This document shows positions 622 to 19,656 of a stretch of 19,656 bases of DNA, piece by piece. The stretch lies in NCBI GenBank assembly GCA_900299205.1, contig OMIW01000151.1, positions 1-19,656 on the forward strand. The letters are read 5' to 3'. The notes under the pieces were generated by a model. The model was not told the origin of the DNA. It did not search any database and saw only the letters and a program-made list of their open reading frames with translations. A program made the translations under genes and the position numbers. Position 1 is the first letter of the stretch, and each line of letters starts with the position of its first letter. This DNA comes from Pseudomonadota bacterium (GTDB lineage Bacteria > Bdellovibrionota_C > UBA2361 > OMIW01).

Positions 622-2838
622 CTAGAACATCCCGCGAAATCCGAAGATCACAGCCCGTCCACGCAGCGGTGCAAGATCCTTTAGAAACGACGAGTGCACT
701 CGGGCCTCCTCATCAGTAAGGTTGGTTCCTCGAACAAACAGTCTCAGCGAATGCGGTTCATCCCCCCATCGATAACTCATCTCACTATTGAACATAGAAT
801 AACCCTCGGTGGGGATCTCTCCGGCAGCCAGTCGTCGCTGTGCTTCTACCCGCACCGACTCGACCATCATCTCTATCGCGTTGGGAAGCTCCCAACGACC
901 ACGGAGGATGTATCGCAACGGCGGTGTTCGCGGAATGTAGCTATCCCGGTCTCTATCATGCGTACGGACTAAATCACTCTGAAAATCAATCGTCAGTCGA
1001 TGTCCAAACATCGGAACAATCTGATCGACATGGAGCGATGACAAAAACTCGCCCCCCCAAAAGGTCGCTCCAGTTTCCTCGTAGGTAAACAGCGGAAATT
1101 CCTCCTCCGACCGGCCAATTCCCCGTAAGTTAAAATAACTGGAGAACCGTTGATAGAAGGGAGTTATTGATGCCGTTAGCATCCCTTTATTTTTATGAAA
1201 TGAGAGGTCGAGGCCGGTGGATCGCTCCTTTGAAAGCGATGAGTTACCTCGCTCAGTGATCCGTCGCGCATAATGAATACCATCGGCATAGAGCTCGATA
1301 GGAGATGCCGCCCTCTCAGCATAAGCCAGCGATGAAGCGATTGAATATACTGCCTCAGCATCAAGTTCCCACCTGAACCCCCCCGAAATGCTCAGGGGAC
1401 TGCTTCTAAAAGAGTCGCCAATTATCGGATCATGTGATACTGACTCAAACCGCCCTCCCCATTGGAGGGAGAACGGATCAGTTAATTGCGCTTTTTCGAA
1501 GAAGAATAATGCCTCGGTCTTACTCTTCGTTGCGGGAATAAATGCCTCCTCTCCCTGAGCAGAAAAATCATCATACATTGAGTGAATTCCGAAGACTCCC
1601 GTCACCGACCCTACGGGCTGATGAATAAATTCAAGACGCCCCTCAAATCCGTCTTTTTCAAAAAGGTTGCCGACCGCTCCTCCCTCAAACTCTGTGTGTT
1701 CGTAGTCTGTTGCACCGACGCGAAATTTTATTGATTCGATTGGCGCATCGAAATCGTACCGACCTCGAAGGTCAGCACGAAGCTGCTTCGCATCAATTCT
1801 GACATCATCAGAAGCATTCTCCTCTCTGCCCCTACCCAAATCCTCATCCTTGGATTCCTCGTGCCCGTGTGCATGACCTGGAACACCGTATGCGCTATCG
1901 AATCCACTCACTGCGAGCCCAACAAAGCCCTCCTCAAAAATATGCGACGCCCCAACAGTGCCTCCATACGTCTGAGAGTCGCTGTTCGGAACAATCCCTC
2001 GAGCTTCATATTCATCGTCGGATTTATCCTCGAGATGCTCATTACCCTCGAGCGACTCCTCCCGCTCCCGAAGACGCTCGGATTCTGCTGACCCCGGAAT
2101 TTCGTAAGAGCTAGTCCTTCTTGAAAAAGCTGCCCCGTACCAGTTGACCGAGCCACTTTCCGCCCTGAGCCTGACCGCCTCTGATTTTTCATTGTCTGCG
2201 CTGTCTCCAAACTGCCCCAAAACGGTCCCTTCAAAAGGCTTTCCCAGAGAAAACTCAGCAATAGATCCGTCCGTCACGTTCACAGCACCACCAATCGCTG
2301 AACTTCCGTACAGCAAAGTCTCGGGACCTCGTAGGATCTCTATCTGCTCGGCCTGCAGCGGGTCGGCAACAACAACATGATCTTCGCTCAAGCTCGAGAC
2401 ATCACCGGTCGACACCCCATTGCGCAGCGTCCTAACCCGCTCGCCACTAAAACCACGGATAACAGGACGGCTCGCGCCGGGACCAAAAAACGAGCTCCGA
2501 ACGCCTGGCTGCAGATCAACCGTTTCTCCGAGCGTACTGCGCAAACGATCTTGAAGCCGCTCTCCCTCCAGAACACTTGCTGGCCGACTGAATTCGAGGA
2601 GACTCTGGGAAAGGGGGTCTGCTTGAATGACGATGGTAGGAATGTCCCCTGATTCTCGGAGCTCCGCTCCGCCTGCCTTTTTATCCACCTCACCTACTCC
2701 GTCCTGTGCGAGAGAACTGGAAGAATGGATGCTAAGGAGGCTGCCAACGAGCAGAATTGTGCATAAATTCTTGGATGTTCCGGGCGGTTGTGCGACCCTA
2801 GATTTATTTGTTATACTTTTGCAATAAATCGTGACCAT
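622..2838 (-). CDS. znuD: TonB-dependent outer-membrane receptor, ZnuD-like (probable zinc uptake)
   Basis: Outer-membrane gated beta-barrel that imports a metal with TonB-ExbBD energy. A signal peptide (hydrophobic run near LCTILLVGSLL, ending near SSLAQ) is followed by a TonB-box-like IPTIVIQ. The plug domain carries RPVIRGFSGERVRTLRNG, SSLSEDHVVVADPL and ILRGPETLLYGSSAIGGAVNV, closely resembling ZnuD-type zinc receptors. A barrel of about 550 residues ends in a terminal Phe (GFRGMF), as expected for BAM recognition. An extracellular-loop-like segment starts GVPGHAHGHEES and continues rich in Asp/Glu, a plausible metal-capture loop also seen in ZnuD relatives. Start: an in-frame ATG exists at 2868 without a Shine-Dalgarno sequence. 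The ATG at 2838 has GGAG six bases upstream and is preferred (738 aa). It is divergent from a Zur-like repressor, which supports zinc, though a related metal such as cobalt or nickel is possible. Confidence 0.88.
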   Translation of the reverse strand: MVTIYCKSITNKSRVAQPPGTSKNLCTILLVGSLLSIHSSSSLAQDGVGEVDKKAGGAELRESGDIPTIVIQADPLSQSLLEFSRPASVLEGERLQDRLRSTLGETVDLQPGVRSSFFGPGASRPVIRGFSGERVRTLRNGVSTGDVSSLSEDHVVVADPLQAEQIEILRGPETLLYGSSAIGGAVNVTDGSIAEFSLGKPFEGTVLGQFGDSADNEKSEAVRLRAESGSVNWYGAAFSRRTSSYEIPGSAESERLREREESLEGNEHLEDKSDDEYEARGIVPNSDSQTYGGTVGASHIFEEGFVGLAVSGFDSAYGVPGHAHGHEESKDEDLGRGREENASDDVRIDAKQLRADLRGRYDFDAPIESIKFRVGATDYEHTEFEGGAVGNLFEKDGFEGRLEFIHQPVGSVTGVFGIHSMYDDFSAQGEEAFIPATKSKTEALFFFEKAQLTDPFSLQWGGRFESVSHDPIIGDSFRSSPLSISGGFRWELDAEAVYSIASSLAYAERAASPIELYADGIHYARRITERGNSSLSKERSTGLDLSFHKNKGMLTASITPFYQRFSSYFNLRGIGRSEEEFPLFTYEETGATFWGGEFLSSLHVDQIVPMFGHRLTIDFQSDLVRTHDRDRDSYIPRTPPLRYILRGRWELPNAIEMMVESVRVEAQRRLAAGEIPTEGYSMFNSEMSYRWGDEPHSLRLFVRGTNLTDEEARVHSSFLKDLAPLRGRAVIFGFRGMF

Positions 2839-2893
2839 GAGGCACTCCAGGAGTTGCAGCTTATGCATTAAGCGCCGATTTAGAGGTAGTGCA

Positions 2894-2937
2894 TAGGTAT
2901 CACGACAAACGTTAAAGGGTCAACCTTAATGTATATT
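2894..2937. promoter_or_regulatory. Divergent promoter region with candidate Zur operator
   Basis: An imperfect inverted repeat is centred near 2920, with arms TTAAAGG (2912-2918) and CCTTAA (2924-2929); the core AAGGGTCAACCTT is 10/13 self-complementary. It covers a good -35 for the receptor on the minus strand (TTGACC, 2918-2923), which is 18 bp from a weak -10 (TACCTA, 2894-2899). On the plus strand it lies just before an AT-rich -10-like TATATT (2932-2937) for the repressor gene. A site here could repress both genes when zinc is plentiful. The assignment to Zur is inferred from the neighbours; the sequence is not a textbook E. coli Zur box. Confidence 0.5.
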
Positions 2938-2962
2938 TTTACCAGTTAGGCCATTTCTCTTC

Positions 2963-3505
2963 ATGCAGAAAAAATCTTCCCGTGCCTCATCAGTCTCAGC
3001 TTCTCCGACATCGCATGAACACTGTCGCTCCGCCGTGACGGTAGTCCACTACGTTGATAGCTGCCTCGCCATCCTAGTCCGGCATGGTCTTCGGGTAACT
3101 GCCCCCCGGAGGTCGGTGATATCTTTTCTGGCAAGACAGGAAAATCCTGTCACCATTGCCGAGCTGTTTGATGCGCTGGGCGAACTATCTTGCGGCAAAC
3201 AACCGCTCAGTAAAGTGTCACTCTATCGAGTTATCGCCGATCTCGAACATATCCAGCTCGTTCACAGGGTTCACCCATCGGGAGGATATATCCTCTGCAC
3301 CCACATTGGCTGCGAAGAGCACTCACATGTGATTATCACCTGCCCTACCTGTGAAAAAACGGAGGAAACAACGGTGCCGAAGGAGCTATTAAGTCCCCTT
3401 GTTTTTTTCATCACTCAAACGGGTTCCTATCTTCACCCATCTTCGCTTCTTCGAATCGAAGGAGTGTGTCAAAGGTGCCACCGAATATCCCATCAATCGT
3501 GTTAG
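2963..3505 (+). CDS. zur: Fur-family metal-dependent repressor, probably Zur
   Basis: DNA-binding repressor of the Fur superfamily, 180 aa. The winged-helix domain covers roughly residues 35-95, with LRVTAPRRSVISFLA and the recognition-helix region KVSLYRVIADLE. The dimerisation domain follows, with a His-rich metal-site region (CTHIGCEEHSHVIITC). Two CxxC pairs (CPTC and CQRC) are the usual structural zinc site of Fur, Zur and PerR proteins. The first 25 or so residues are Ser-rich and precede the normal family start, so the true start could be slightly downstream. It is divergent from a ZnuD-like receptor, with a palindrome between them, which favours zinc sensing and autoregulation. Fur or PerR remain possible on sequence alone. 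The TAG stop overlaps the convergent prmC stop by 4 nt. Confidence 0.82.
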   Translation: MQKKSSRASSVSASPTSHEHCRSAVTVVHYVDSCLAILVRHGLRVTAPRRSVISFLARQENPVTIAELFDALGELSCGKQPLSKVSLYRVIADLEHIQLVHRVHPSGGYILCTHIGCEEHSHVIITCPTCEKTEETTVPKELLSPLVFFITQTGSYLHPSSLLRIEGVCQRCHRISHQSC

Positions 3506-10203: not shown

Positions 10204-10566
10204 ATGAAAATTTCAGCAAGTTCCCTAACTAGTTTTTTATCTCCTTCAATTAGTGCCTCTGATACAGAAAAAGCCGCGAGAAGCGTCGGCAGTCGAGCTC
10301 AAGCCGAACAGGAAAAACTGATGAACCTCTATGGATTGTCATCTGGCGGTAAGAGCGACAAACAGATTAATGATGCACTCCAAGCAATGAACCTTCCACC
10401 AAAAGCCGGTCCAGGAACCATGCAAGAGCATCTGCGAGGCTTGATTGATGCTCAGCAACAACGAGTGAATAGATCGTTTGAAACGCTCTCCGCATTCCAG
10501 ACATTCATGAAGAATATTCACGAAATGATCATGAGCATTATCCGAAACATGCGGTTGCAGCCCTAG
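10204..10566 (+). CDS. Small helical protein of unknown function (possible T3SS needle/rod-like substrate)
   Basis: I do not recognise this 120-aa protein. It has no signal peptide, no Cys and no membrane segment. The N-terminus is Ser/Ile-rich (SASSLTSFLSPSISASD), as often seen in type III substrates. The C-terminal 40 residues form a likely amphipathic helix ending IHEMIMSIIRNMRLQ, reminiscent in length and hydrophobic spacing of T3SS needle-protein (SctF) C-termini, but identity is low. It stands alone as a monocistronic unit with its own terminator, 4.8 kb from the T3SS block. Start ATG 10204 has only a weak upstream GGA. The 161 bp before it show no clear promoter. The needle/rod idea is a guess; a plain hypothetical protein is the safe reading. 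Confidence 0.7.
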   Translation: MKISASSLTSFLSPSISASDTEKAARSVGSRAQAEQEKLMNLYGLSSGGKSDKQINDALQAMNLPPKAGPGTMQEHLRGLIDAQQQRVNRSFETLSAFQTFMKNIHEMIMSIIRNMRLQP

Positions 10567-15341: not shown

Positions 15342-15785
15342 TCAGCCGCGAATACGATAACGAGCAAGAAGCATTCGGTAGACCCTCACTATGTTTTTAT
15401 CAAATTCTATCCCCGACTCCATCGCCTCTCGAATTTCTCCAAGGTAGGTTCCGGCGGAATTATAATCCTCAAGACCGAACATCGCGATGACTAAAAGTAA
15501 TGTCGCCTCTGCAACCTGAGAGTCAATCTCCGAAGCTCGACGGGCAGCACCCGCTGCTTGAATAAAATCTCGCTCAAACAAGGCGATGATGGCCTGACCA
15601 ATCGAAGCTGGGGCAAGATTTGGTACTAGATGGATTAATCCATCAAAAATTACCGATGCCTGACGAAGATTCCCTGTTTCGAGATAGAGCTGCCCAAGAG
15701 CATAGATTGACTCTATTTGCTCAAGGGAATACCCCTTCTTTAGCACCTCCGAGCGTAAATCCGCGAGCGTGCTCTGCGACTTCAT
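15342..15785 (-). CDS. TPR protein, probable T3SS chaperone-like (SycD/LcrH or SctG type)
   Basis: A 147-aa all-helical protein with tandem tetratricopeptide repeats: IYALGQLYLETGNLRQASVIFDGL, then PASIGQAIIALFERDFIQAAGAARRASEID (each shown here only as the repeat core), then a third degenerate repeat ending in GEIREAM. Small TPR proteins of this size are the class II chaperones of translocators (SycD/LcrH) or the needle-subunit chaperone SctG (PscG/YscG). It is the last gene of the T3SS block and its ATG overlaps the preceding stop by 4 nt (ATGA), implying coupling with the 87-aa protein. There is no signal peptide. The fold call is good; the partner is unknown. Confidence 0.75.
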   Translation of the reverse strand: MKSQSTLADLRSEVLKKGYSLEQIESIYALGQLYLETGNLRQASVIFDGLIHLVPNLAPASIGQAIIALFERDFIQAAGAARRASEIDSQVAEATLLLVIAMFGLEDYNSAGTYLGEIREAMESGIEFDKNIVRVYRMLLARYRIRG

Positions 15786-16045
15786 ACGCCACCCCCGAGG
15801 TCAGCTCCTAACCACTCAAGCACCTGCTTCAACATCTTCTCTTCAGCGGCATATGGTCGCCGAAGCTCAAGGGGTGCCTCCCGAAGCTCAAGGTCAAGAA
15901 GAATTTGACGAACCCTCTCGTGCCGCGCAAATAGTGAACTTGTCAATTCATGGAGCTTTTGAACATTTCCGAGCGTCGGGAGAAGAGATATCAGCGGATA
16001 TACCGAAGCTGAGTCCGCAGGTTCAAAAAGGGGTCTTTGCGGCAT
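15782..16045 (-). CDS. Small helical protein of T3SS block, unknown
   Basis: I do not recognise this 87-aa protein. The C-terminal half is charged and helix-prone (HERVRQILLDLELREA, then EEKMLKQVLEWLG). There is no signal peptide or membrane span. ATG 16045 has GAGG four bases upstream. It is coupled by a 4-nt overlap to the TPR gene. In Pseudomonas and Yersinia, small SctE and TPR SctG proteins form a pair that holds the needle subunit, so a partner of the TPR protein is a fair guess. A remnant of the missing SctU C-terminal domain was considered, but the NPTH motif is absent. Confidence 0.65.
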   Translation of the reverse strand: MPQRPLFEPADSASVYPLISLLPTLGNVQKLHELTSSLFARHERVRQILLDLELREAPLELRRPYAAEEKMLKQVLEWLGADLGGGV

Positions 16046-16097: not shown

Positions 16098-16658
16098 TCA
16101 ACCTCGTACTGAACGAACAGAGAGCAGCAGCAATAAGCCTGAAGTGGCGGCTGCGCCTCCTCCCAACAATACCAGCCACCGACGTACATCAACAAGCAGG
16201 TTTGATCCGTCAGTCTCCAGGATGTGAAAACTCCCGGCTCTGCTGACCCAGAACTGAAGAGTTAGATAGCCGACCGAAAGGCCGAGGAGGATCCACACCA
16301 AACCGAAAAGTGTCCTGATAAAAAGCCCAATATCTGACCCCATTCCACGGGGCTGAAAAGCTCCCCACTTTGGCCACAAAAAGGCAATTGCGATGGATAC
16401 TCCGCACACAACTAACATCGGCAAACCCAAAAAAATGGCCGCGAATCTCAGGATCAACTCCCATGGAGCTATGTTCGCTACACTGCCAATAGATTTCTGA
16501 GCCCCTTCCACAAATGGCCAACTATGGAACCACAAGCCCTGCATCCGTTCAGCCGAAAATAATGTACTAACACCCCCTAGAGAAAGAGCAAGAGTGGCAA
16601 ACTCAGCGAAAAAGACCGATATCTGCCGTAGGTGCCTTACCTTTCGATTAATCTCCAA
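16098..16658 (-). CDS. Four-pass membrane protein in the sctU position (SctU/FlhB-like membrane domain only)
   Basis: A 186-aa inner-membrane protein with four likely membrane segments (about 12-35, 64-96, 108-137 and 159-182). It sits directly after the sctT-position gene, where sctU normally lies. Patterns resembling the FlhB/SctU membrane domain are a basic N-terminus (NRKVRHLRQ), a GAFQPRG segment after segment 2, like the family G..F.P loop, and GLFIRTLFGLVWILLG, like the helix that follows it. SctU proteins are about 350 aa with a cytoplasmic NPTH autocleaving domain; here the protein ends after segment 4 and the inner loop is short. The start is TTG 16658 with GAGGA six bases upstream. 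The homology is inferred and could be wrong. Confidence 0.55.
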   Translation of the reverse strand: MEINRKVRHLRQISVFFAEFATLALSLGGVSTLFSAERMQGLWFHSWPFVEGAQKSIGSVANIAPWELILRFAAIFLGLPMLVVCGVSIAIAFLWPKWGAFQPRGMGSDIGLFIRTLFGLVWILLGLSVGYLTLQFWVSRAGSFHILETDGSNLLVDVRRWLVLLGGGAAATSGLLLLLSVRSVRG

Positions 16659-16766: not shown

Positions 16767-17285
16767 CTACCAGATCAGATTCCCTACCAACTCTCTACCA
16801 AGAAATATGAGAACCCCCAAGAAAACAACTAATCTTAACGCGCGCACCAGACCGAGAAATTCGCCTCTTCCCCTCTCTGCACACCATGCGAGAGGAACAA
16901 AACTTAGTCCAACAACAAGTCCAGCGGTTGCCGATACGAAGAGAGCCTTCTCAGCCAACCCGAGAATTATCATAAAAAAAGCCATAAAGTCTGAGGGCAA
17001 ATCTCCTGATGCGACGTTTGGGCTCAAGACGTTATTCCCTAATCCGCTTCCCGCAACACAAAGCATCCAAACTGAAAGCGATGAAGCAATCGGAACCTCA
17101 GACATCTGGCCTAGGATGACAACAGCGGCCCATGCAACAAGAACTGGAGCGAAAAATAGAAAAATCGCCCCTCCTATTTGATAGCCACTGTCAAATAGGA
17201 GCAAAATCCGTGCACCAAAACCTACGACAACCGCCAAGAGAAGCATTGACCCCACGTCAATCGATTCCTCCTCTTTCGATTTCAC
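16767..17285 (-). CDS. Polytopic membrane protein in the sctT position
   Basis: A 172-aa integral membrane protein with about five or six hydrophobic segments (12-31, 36-59, 66-85, 100-137 with a possible break, 148-170). By order (sctQ-R-S-here) it occupies the place of SctT/FliR, a usually 250-260-aa export-gate subunit. I could not match a diagnostic SctT motif, so the name is positional. It lies 19 nt after sctS. GTG 17285 has GAGAGG just upstream; GTG 17255 or ATG 17246 are alternatives. A 108-nt gap then leads to the sctU-position gene. It could be a shortened SctT or an unrelated membrane protein that replaced it. Confidence 0.55.
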   Translation of the reverse strand: MKSKEEESIDVGSMLLLAVVVGFGARILLLFDSGYQIGGAIFLFFAPVLVAWAAVVILGQMSEVPIASSLSVWMLCVAGSGLGNNVLSPNVASGDLPSDFMAFFMIILGLAEKALFVSATAGLVVGLSFVPLAWCAERGRGEFLGLVRALRLVVFLGVLIFLGRELVGNLIW

Positions 17286-17304: not shown

Positions 17305-17550
17305 TTAACGAAACGCGAGCGTACCGAGATCCCTTAGAAGCATCCAACTTCGCTCCCACACGACTATCATCGCTGAAATTCCTGCTCCAAGCCGGAGGGT
17401 TAACCCGAACGACGGCATTCTTACTCCTGCTGCTCGCTCGACCATTGATACGAAAATCGAACCAGCAACTATTGCCCCTCCAACAGGGATTCCAAAGGCA
17501 ACCAAAAGGTTCATAGCCAAGACGAAGAGGTCTTTAAGCTCTGATGTCAC
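17305..17550 (-). CDS. sctS: T3SS export apparatus protein SctS (FliQ/YscS family)
   Basis: Small two-helix inner-membrane subunit of the type III export gate, present in several copies around SctR. The frame opens at TTG 17589, inside sctR. GTG 17550, with GGTGGGG just upstream, gives 81 aa and places the conserved helix-1 proline (AFGIPVGG) at residue 22, as in FliQ/SctS (86-89 aa). Helix 2 follows a short basic/polar loop (RAAGVRMPSFGLTLRLGAG) and ends WERSWMLLRDL, like the family W...L..F end. Divergence is considerable, so confidence rests on size, two-helix topology and position right after sctR. Confidence 0.7.
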   Translation of the reverse strand: MTSELKDLFVLAMNLLVAFGIPVGGAIVAGSIFVSMVERAAGVRMPSFGLTLRLGAGISAMIVVWERSWMLLRDLGTLAFR

Positions 17551-17578
17551 AAATCCCCACCGTTTTATTCCGATAAAA

Positions 17579-18163
17579 CTACTGGCCAAACAAGGACTTC
17601 ATAAGCAAGGACCACCCATCAATCGCAAAAAAAGTGAGCATCTTTGCAGGAAATGATACCGAGTCGGCCGTTATTGAGTGTATACCCACCATCGACATAA
17701 AGAGAGCCACTATGAGATCAATAACGAAAAACGGGATAAGTAACTTGACACCGCTTGCAAAAGCTCGCCTCACTTCAGATATTGCAAAGGCTCCCAGGAG
17801 AAGCTCAACGGAGGGTCCTGTGTCTCTCGTTGTTTCGGACAGGCGGGAACCATCGGGCTTCATCGACAGCCCCTGCATCTGCTTGATGACCATCGGGTCG
17901 GTGCGAGCGGAGAGGGCATCAACAATTTCCCTCGTGGAATCTGCATTACCTGACCCAGCTTCCCGTCCTCCAGAAATATGAGCCAGGGAATCCGGAGATA
18001 TTTCGAGCCGACCACCAAAGGATAAAGCGACGGATATTAAGATTACGGAAATTGCTGACGGCAAATCCGCAAAACCGAGTGCACGCCTCAATATGGCGAG
18101 CACGACCAGTGTGCGAATAAAAGATGATAAAAATATCACACTAAAAATGAACGAGGGATCCAC
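17579..18163 (-). CDS. sctR: T3SS export apparatus protein SctR (FliP/YscR family)
   Basis: Core pore subunit of the type III export gate in the inner membrane. Clear family matches are SFIRTLVVLAILRRALG (14-30), the FAISEVRRAF segment (126-135), IPFFVIDLIVALFMSMVG (143-160), and SFPAKMLTFFAIDGWSLL (170-187), which aligns with the family S.PfKlllFv.vDGW.L. The periplasmic middle (51-118) includes the expected TDP segment. At 194 aa it is shorter than usual (about 215), and about 15 residues of helix 1 seem missing. GTG 18163 is the first possible start because a TAA directly precedes it. FliP is the flagellar homologue; no flagellar genes are nearby. Confidence 0.9.
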   Translation of the reverse strand: MDPSFIFSVIFLSSFIRTLVVLAILRRALGFADLPSAISVILISVALSFGGRLEISPDSLAHISGGREAGSGNADSTREIVDALSARTDPMVIKQMQGLSMKPDGSRLSETTRDTGPSVELLLGAFAISEVRRAFASGVKLLIPFFVIDLIVALFMSMVGIHSITADSVSFPAKMLTFFAIDGWSLLMKSLFGQ

Positions 18164-18308: not shown

Positions 18309-19340
18309 CTAATCTACCTCAACCGCGAACCGCCCGCGATATGATCTGATAACACCTCGTCCCTCTTTATTACCATTCACCCAAAGCTCCACTCTATCAC
18401 CCAAGGGTATGCCAGTTTCAAGCATCGCACCCATTTGAGAAATCTCAGCAAGGAGTGTTGGCTCGCATGTGATACCACCAAGAACTACAGAGAAGCGTTC
18501 GAACCCTTCAGGGAAAGTCGGACCGGATGTCCTAGCAGATAGTATTTCGCATCCGAGACGCGATTCAACATCACAAATTCGAGCACTTATAAGGCTATTA
18601 TCATCGAATCTGAGCACGACACTATCAGACATCGGAATATCCAGATCGACCGCCTGACCGGTTCGAAGATAATCACGAAGAGCCGTGGGCGGAACTGCCA
18701 GCTGAGCTACCTCTATCGACATGGTAACTGGCATCGCGCTGAGTCGATGAGTCGAATGAAGCTGTAATCGCCACAGCCGATCAAGCTCATCGACCAAACT
18801 GGAGGATAGAAGCAACCACAACGATACTTGCTGGCCATTGACGAGGAACATCACCTTTACAGCCCCTCCATATTCGTGCGAAGCGATATCTATCCCTCCA
18901 AAGACACGAACCTCATTCGACCCCTCACCTCTCCAGCTGAGCGCCAAACTACCAACGAGCCTCCTCGCCAAGTACTCTAATAGTAAACCCTGGGCCTTTT
19001 GACCAACATCAGGAACAAAAGCATCTAGGAAAGAAGCCTTACTCGCCCCATCGGCCGTAACCACTAGATGGTGTCCCCCTAGTGCCAACATGACTCCTGA
19101 GCCACTCAATTGGGGCACTGCGGCTACTGGCTTTACCTCCACAACACGAATCTCTGCACCGACCGAATCGATTATAGGCAACCAAAAAACGGTAAGGTTA
19201 GGAACCCATCGTTCAGGTCGGCTTCGCAAAAACCCTCTCGATAACGCCACATGCCGCCGGTCCACCTGACGGAGGAGACCCTGCGGCTCCCAAGGAATGA
19301 GCTCGACATCAACCTCATTTTCATTCGAATAATCATTCAT
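18309..19340 (-). CDS. sctQ: T3SS cytoplasmic sorting-platform (C-ring) protein SctQ
   Basis: SctQ (YscQ/SpaO family, homologue of FliM/FliN) forms the cytoplasmic pods that sort substrates for the export gate. The C-terminal 75 residues are a clear SpoA domain, with TLLAEISQMGAMLETGIPLG then DRVELWVNGNKEGRGVI. A weaker SpoA-like domain precedes it (VPPTALRDYLRTGQAVDLDI). The N-terminal 200 residues are divergent, as is normal for the family. Length from ATG 19340 is 343 aa (YscQ is about 307). A TTG at 19373 gives 354 aa; neither start has a good Shine-Dalgarno sequence. An internal start making a short SctQ-C product, common in this family, was not evident. Position before sctR fits the canonical order. 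Confidence 0.85.
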   Translation of the reverse strand: MNDYSNENEVDVELIPWEPQGLLRQVDRRHVALSRGFLRSRPERWVPNLTVFWLPIIDSVGAEIRVVEVKPVAAVPQLSGSGVMLALGGHHLVVTADGASKASFLDAFVPDVGQKAQGLLLEYLARRLVGSLALSWRGEGSNEVRVFGGIDIASHEYGGAVKVMFLVNGQQVSLWLLLSSSLVDELDRLWRLQLHSTHRLSAMPVTMSIEVAQLAVPPTALRDYLRTGQAVDLDIPMSDSVVLRFDDNSLISARICDVESRLGCEILSARTSGPTFPEGFERFSVVLGGITCEPTLLAEISQMGAMLETGIPLGDRVELWVNGNKEGRGVIRSYRGRFAVEVD

Positions 19341-19391
19341 ATGGAGCGATTTTTGCTTTACATTCCAGAGCAACGAACGGGCTACTCAGAG

Positions 19392-19652
19392 TTAGTCCCC
19401 CTCGAATCTTACCGGCTCCTGAAGCTCCCCGAGGGCCTGACGCAGTTCTGTACCCAATAACGGTATCCGGGTTGAGGCTGGAAGAACCGCCATTATCTGT
19501 GCTACCTCTCCAAGCTCTTCTCCCAAGTGGGCATCCTGTTCAAGAAACGTCTGCGACTCACGACCATCCAGTAATACCGCGATCGCCACCATCGCACGCT
19601 GAGCCGGAGGTAGTTTCCTGAAACGCTCTAATCCAGCCATAAAAGATTCCAC
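19392..19652 (-). CDS. Small protein upstream of sctQ, possibly partial
   Basis: I do not recognise it. The 86-residue frame begins GTG 19652 (or ATG 19640, with GGA eight bases upstream) and is open to the window edge, so it could be the end of a longer gene. It is helical and acidic in its second half (DAHLGEELGEVAQIMAVLP, then LRQALGEL). It ends 18 nt before the TTG 19373, or 51 nt before ATG 19340, of sctQ. Genes upstream of sctQ in T3SS operons often encode SctO, SctP or SctL, but no such family match is visible. The segment LERFRKLPPAQRAMVAIAVL faintly recalls FliG-type helices. Confidence 0.5.
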   Translation of the reverse strand: MESFMAGLERFRKLPPAQRAMVAIAVLLDGRESQTFLEQDAHLGEELGEVAQIMAVLPASTRIPLLGTELRQALGELQEPVRFEGD

Positions 19653-19656
19653 AGCA

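Follow-up and report, generated by a model that had tools for sequence, protein, structure and literature searches.

A SctU-like protein reduced to its membrane domain in a type III secretion locus that may be coupled to a Tad pilus machine

In this study, we analysed a complete contig of 19,656 bases (G000:C151, GenBank OMIW01000151.1), hereafter called the window, which comes from a single metagenome-assembled genome (G000; 2.45 Mb, 90% complete, 206 contigs) and was compared with other metagenome-assembled genomes. Genes of a type III secretion system (T3SS) fill the last 4.3 kb of the window, all on the minus strand, and the open reading frame (ORF) at 16098-16658 occupies the position of sctU. 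Judging from sequence comparison, we believe with good confidence that the 186-amino-acid (aa) protein of this ORF is a SctU orthologue of which only the membrane domain remains, and we consider it fairly likely that it is the SctU of a Tad-coupled, apparently needleless T3SS. The T3SS type of the window locus is called system c here, and the other non-flagellar T3SS of the same genomes is called the second T3SS. The self-cleavage of SctU/FlhB and the SctRSTU gate are regarded as central to all type III machines; if our reading is true, a class without the switch, together with lineages that have no gate and keep SctV in a Tad operon, shows which parts of a T3SS are separable.

The ORF, on the minus strand, starts with TTG and ends with a stop codon, and hydropathy places four transmembrane (TM) segments at residues 13-31, 75-93, 110-128, and 163-181 of the protein. 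Four such segments encoded after the SctT slot are what is expected of FlhB/SctU. An earlier note on this DNA had claimed that the chain ends right after the fourth segment, that the loop between the second and third segments looks shortened, and that the NPTH autoprotease domain is missing, and these claims were all borne out. Only 5 residues follow TM4, and the TM2-TM3 loop has 16 residues, compared with approximately 38 in FlhB and short of the roughly 30 of a FlhB-type loop. By the same hydropathy measure, the median loop and tail were 33.5 and 24.5 residues in the orthologues of other genera and 24 and 18 residues in genus g11, and the corresponding lengths were about 37 and 67 residues in the SctU of the second T3SS and about 38 and 155 residues in flagellar FlhB. 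Loops of 16-25 residues were seen in the window and in much of g11. No NP[TDSE]H motif was present in any of the six frames of the window, and no frame beyond the stop codon encodes a C-terminal domain. A frameshift hiding the C-terminal domain was ruled out by reading the downstream frames and by the six-frame motif scan. Studies have shown that the TM2-TM3 loop of FlhB wraps the closed gate, and that deletions of at least 6 residues in this 30-residue loop abolish motility (PMC7064499). In the predicted SctU-slot protein, the loop that wraps the gate has about half its usual length, and hardly any sequence identity to the FlhB/SctU membrane domain is left.

The identity of the protein as SctU is argued from synteny, topology, and a weak profile match. 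SctQ of the window type was found in 41 of the 45 class genomes, a count that includes the window genome, and the order SctR, SctS, SctT, SctU, an 87-aa protein, and a TPR protein was kept after SctQ in most of those 41 genomes. More than 20 relatives carry an undoubted SctU that agrees with the slot protein in order, strand, topology, and operon position. PF01312 was matched by all 14 U-slot orthologues of one alignment (A2; best 2.5e-24), and the first of these matching orthologues stops at profile position 222 of 335. The class SctU profile reached FlhB chains in PDB at 4.5e-18. The U-slot proteins of g11 have 193-205 aa, and profile comparison connected g11 SctU with class SctU (E=5e-16) and class SctU with the SctU of the second T3SS (E=1e-25); as a control, the profile of the window and g11 proteins was negative against SctT (0.3% probability). 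Of the 82 ORFs in the window, the one in the sctU slot scored best against the class SctU profile (E=0.008), a score reached by about 3 of 500 shuffles. The protein in the sctU slot is most likely the SctU orthologue; the orthologues of the class match PF01312 and are also without the C-terminal domain.

Structure and PDB searches added little. The AlphaFold model of the window protein has four long helices at low confidence (predicted local distance difference test score, pLDDT, 62; predicted template modelling score, pTM, 0.40), and a PDB sequence search with the profile of the window and g11 proteins gave only two LSm7 matches, which we judged meaningless. The earlier note had proposed Foldseek as a check. 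Foldseek/VIA with low-confidence models (pLDDT 62 and 66) found no FlhB, but the positive control L094 also found none; because L094 is an undoubted SctU by sequence, this search had no power.

The reduction is not confined to the window. Every system-c SctU examined stops soon after TM4 and has neither the linker nor the NPTH autoprotease domain. Because the orthologous loci of the class encode clear SctU proteins that all end in this way, the loss of the autoprotease is, on the sequences compared, ancestral to the class and not a local truncation or a peculiarity of the window. The system-c proteins resemble FlhB/SctU (PF01312) in the four TM helices and the place after SctT, and the orthologues carry an N-terminal PT..KL..LR motif, whereas the chain differs in stopping after TM4, without the GDP motif of the linker or the NPTH domain. 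No full-length SctU was present in the window locus, and both SctU proteins of G071 (9 Mb), a possible myxobacterial comparator, are full length, with NPDH or NPTH. Outside the class (382 genomes searched in all), the only short SctU frame among the matches listed lies at a contig edge. No dedicated free C-domain partner for SctU-c was found, because the sole free C domain in G009 and G031 sits in the second T3SS locus; full-length FlhB was not found in these two genomes.

SctRSTU is the fast-changing and repeatedly lost part of system c, and SctV, SctQ, and the Tad genes are kept. The interval from SctQ to the TPR gene is cleanly devoid of SctRSTU in G018, G023, G024, and G025, which form one four-species clade (support 100/99), and in G038, where the loss was independent; SctQ and the TPR gene remain in the deleted loci (L111, L113, L117, L118, and L135). 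No system-c SctR was found elsewhere in the genomes with the deletion. SctV-c was kept in them, and where it was compared within the clade it was 70-81% identical, with the GDA region intact. In G002 (95% complete, 20 contigs), a 174-aa SctR, a 78-aa SctS, a 61-aa SctT fragment, and a 153-aa U-slot protein are left; SctV-c and the Tad genes are retained, and neither the SctU nor the SctV of a second T3SS was found. Between the close g11 species G013 and G026, identity was 90% for SctQ, 75% for SctR, and 45% for SctU, and the non-synonymous divergence (dN) was 0.06 for SctQ versus 0.57 for SctU. The distance from SctQ to the TPR gene was 2523 bp in the window and 2525-2528 bp in relatives despite the shorter T and U ORFs of the window, as expected from ORF decay. 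Taking the deletions, the crumbling gate of G002, the fast divergence of SctU, and the unchanged spacing of the window together, we describe the system-c gate as being under relaxed selection and the window as being at a late stage of erosion. Our results suggest that the loss extends beyond the switch to the whole gate.

SctV-c (PF00771, e.g. 3e-177) is encoded within a Tad pilus operon in relatives, where it is inserted after TadC (L147, L148, L149, L150, L155, L156, and L158). This operon encodes a TadZ-like ATPase, Flp pilin, RcpC/CpaB, TadA/CpaF, TadB, TadC, and SctV, followed by a kinase-like/HEAT protein. The Pfam matches were PF13614, PF16976, PF00437, PF00482 (twice), and PF00771, and the Flp pilin carries a conserved GAS[LM]VEYALL or GATMLEYALL. 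In G029, G031, G032, G038, and G041, the operon lies close upstream of the FHA-domain SctD, SctJ, and SctQ on the same contig. The relatives therefore hold the set that marks a Kil/T3SS*-like system, namely the TadA ATPase, TadB/TadC, RcpC, and Flp pilin with T3SS platform genes. The locus proteins scanned included no recognisable needle, ruler, or secretin of the system's own, no genome-wide search being made. We lean towards the view that the host apparatus is a Tad-coupled, apparently needleless T3SS conserved in the class. The earlier note had expected needle-length switching to be done differently, and with no needle or ruler recognised and a Tad pilus coupled to the system, this question is probably moot.

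Studies have shown that the Kil pilus and the needleless T3SS* of Myxococcus act together in predation (PMC8460266, PMC12075869, PMC10433427). The Kil (Tad-like) and T3SS* systems of M. xanthus are similar to those of the class in that a Tad pilus occurs with a T3SS platform (SctD/J/Q/V and an LcrH-like TPR protein) and FHA-domain proteins, and in that needle or secretin is unrecognised in the T3SS part. In contrast, SctV of the class stands inside the Tad operon with SctD/J/Q adjoining, whereas Myxococcus has been described with separate Kil and T3SS* loci; likewise, SctU of the class is without the C domain and the gate is lost in some lineages, whereas SctRSTUV of Myxococcus is complete. 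The arrangement in the class would give genomic support to the proposal from Myxococcus predation that the Tad pilus and the needleless T3SS are one machine.

We speculated on how such a system could have arisen. The ancestor may have dropped the autoprotease, as no early-to-late switch would be needed without a needle or ruler, and the gate would thereby have been fixed in the post-switch state. In Salmonella, loss of the FlhB C domain blocks early export and permits late export (PMC13344023), from which it would follow that the ancestral system-c gate was fixed post-switch. The SctV ring and the sorting platform could then have been recruited by the Tad machine, for example, to offer chaperoned cargo at the base of the pilus, and the need for the SctRSTU channel would have disappeared. 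The SctU of the window would at best be a hairpin protein with a structural role on a failing gate, and otherwise a remnant. The boldest reading is that the Tad pilus machine took over the SctV ring and the sorting platform, with the channel being discarded and SctV working without its own gate; we rate it as somewhat less likely than not. The loss of the switch half of SctU, and in some members of the whole channel, suggests that the machine is no longer an ordinary protein syringe. We found no description of such gate-free use of the FlhA/SctV family in the open-access literature.

Several points weigh against our main explanation, that the ORF is the SctU of a Tad-coupled T3SS with an eroding gate. 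The SctU-slot protein of the window had no match in Pfam or NCBIfam, or with phmmer across 57 genomes, and it is tied to the SctU family only through its position and the weak profile match. The genes for SctJ-c, SctV-c, and the Tad-c proteins were not found in the assembly of the window genome; the window contig stops exactly where SctJ is expected to start, and their absence is probably an assembly gap rather than a loss. In most genera, the SctU-c ORF is intact and encodes a loop of nearly normal length. The few unsaturated dN/dS values of SctU-c (non-synonymous to synonymous divergence) were below 1, from 0.31 to 0.54, and they are rough because synonymous sites were saturated in most g11 pairs; as values below 1, they indicate that SctU-c does not evolve neutrally and could still form a gate.

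The main rival is a simplified but working gate in the genera that keep SctRSTU-c, in which SctU-c without the C domain assembles on SctRST and exports one substrate class like post-switch FlhB. The open reading frames across the class and the loop lengths in most genera agree with it, as do the late substrates still exported by the Salmonella FlhB without its C domain (PMC13344023). However, SctV persisted through two complete losses of the gate and the near loss in G002, and the loops of the window and g11 are hard to reconcile with the motility-abolishing FlhB deletions (PMC7064499). We regard this working gate as somewhat unlikely.

It is less likely again that the sctU slot of the window holds a four-helix membrane protein of unrelated origin or a decaying frame. 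The lack of a direct family match, the score that some shuffles attain, and the SctQ-to-TPR spacing that stayed the same over shorter ORFs would all fit such an origin, whereas an unrelated protein would hardly share order, strand, topology, and operon position with undoubted SctU in so many relatives, nor rank first in the window on the SctU profile. We also considered that the gate of the second T3SS serves SctV-c, which would make the system-c gate redundant, and that the C domain of its SctU may act in trans on SctU-c. Most genomes contain the two systems together, in many cases with only one non-flagellar SctN ATPase; the second-system SctR is kept in G018, G023, and G038, and a free second-system C domain is present. 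This borrowing is nevertheless improbable, as G002 keeps SctV-c and the Tad genes beside its crumbling gate without second-system SctU or SctV, and SctU-c has no linker where a C domain would dock. Finally, an assembly or sequencing error that cut short a normal SctU, conceivable in a single metagenome-assembled genome, is very improbable, because no C domain follows in any frame and relatives from many independent assemblies show the same truncation.

The earlier note had also suggested that the NPTH domain might be encoded elsewhere as a split protein. This was right in kind for the second T3SS, whose SctU is encoded by two genes with the break precisely at the NPTH site, but the pieces themselves are without NPTH, and nothing shows that they serve the SctU of the window. 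The N-terminal half closes with a motif such as VIVVEK, at the point where NPTH is expected (22 loci), and the separate C-terminal half begins near YxxAVGLxY, just past the site (21 of 22 loci). In the window genome, the halves lie at G000:C165:120-887 and 898-1200 (L055), 10 bases apart. Further split genes are found in L054 (3037-3819 and 6515-6769), L053, L051, and L178-L193. In both loci scanned, the halves flank a gene for a PAS/GAF hybrid histidine kinase of about 880-1030 aa, and a large gene separates them in the other mapped loci of the second T3SS. This split SctU would be a natural version of a pre-cleaved switch. The SctV of the second T3SS (G000:C55:2177-3919 and its equivalents) leaves PF00771 positions of about 405-455 unmatched in nearly all genomes, a stretch near the start of the cytoplasmic part. 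In G009, G007, G010, and G018, the two non-flagellar T3SS sets apparently have only a single non-flagellar SctN/FliI-type ATPase between them.

FlhX of the Helicobacter type is a free-standing FlhB C domain that accompanies full FlhB. Separately encoded FlhB C domains also occur here: FlhX-like ORFs were found at G000:C59:8991-9278, G029:C90:7379-7597, and G038:C38:121927-122139, and those of G029 and G038 share contigs with FlhB. In contrast, the C gene of the second T3SS takes the place of the half that is missing from the split SctU.

The T3SS genes of the window run in the order SctQ, SctR, SctS, SctT slot, SctU slot, 87-aa protein, and TPR protein, all on the minus strand as stated above. 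SctQ (18309-19373), a C-ring/sorting platform protein with clear orthologues class-wide (PF01052, 3.2e-8), is the conserved anchor gene of the locus. SctR (17579-18163, 194 aa; PF00813, 5.8e-27) is shorter and more divergent than flagellar and second-system SctR. SctS (17305-17589, 94 aa) was assigned by a class-specific SctS profile (1.6e-18), and its orthologue in L037 matches PF01313 at 1.7e-9. The SctT-slot protein (16767-17285, 172 aa, 5 TM segments) is identified by position only, with no match to the class SctT profile, Pfam, or NCBIfam; it is about 200 aa long in relatives of the same order and 250-310 aa in other orders. The TPR protein (15342-15785), a SctY/LcrH-like chaperone, has orthologues at up to 3.5e-35 and matches SctY of NCBIfam (NF052415) at 3.1e-6, below the cut-off of that model. 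The conserved 87-aa protein (15782-16045; same-position orthologues, best 5e-18) is possibly a SctX/PscE-like partner of the TPR protein. A small conserved gene (19392-19655; family model 7.8e-28), located between SctJ and SctQ in relatives, is cut by the contig end, and as it overruns this end, SctJ/SctD and the genes upstream are missing from the window.

Outside the T3SS genes, the ORF at 10204-10566 (120 aa) belongs to no known family and has no clear relatives in the loci compared. At 622-3505, a gene that appears to encode a TonB-dependent receptor-like protein (622-2868, minus strand) is divergent from a putative Fur-like regulator gene (2963-3505, plus strand).
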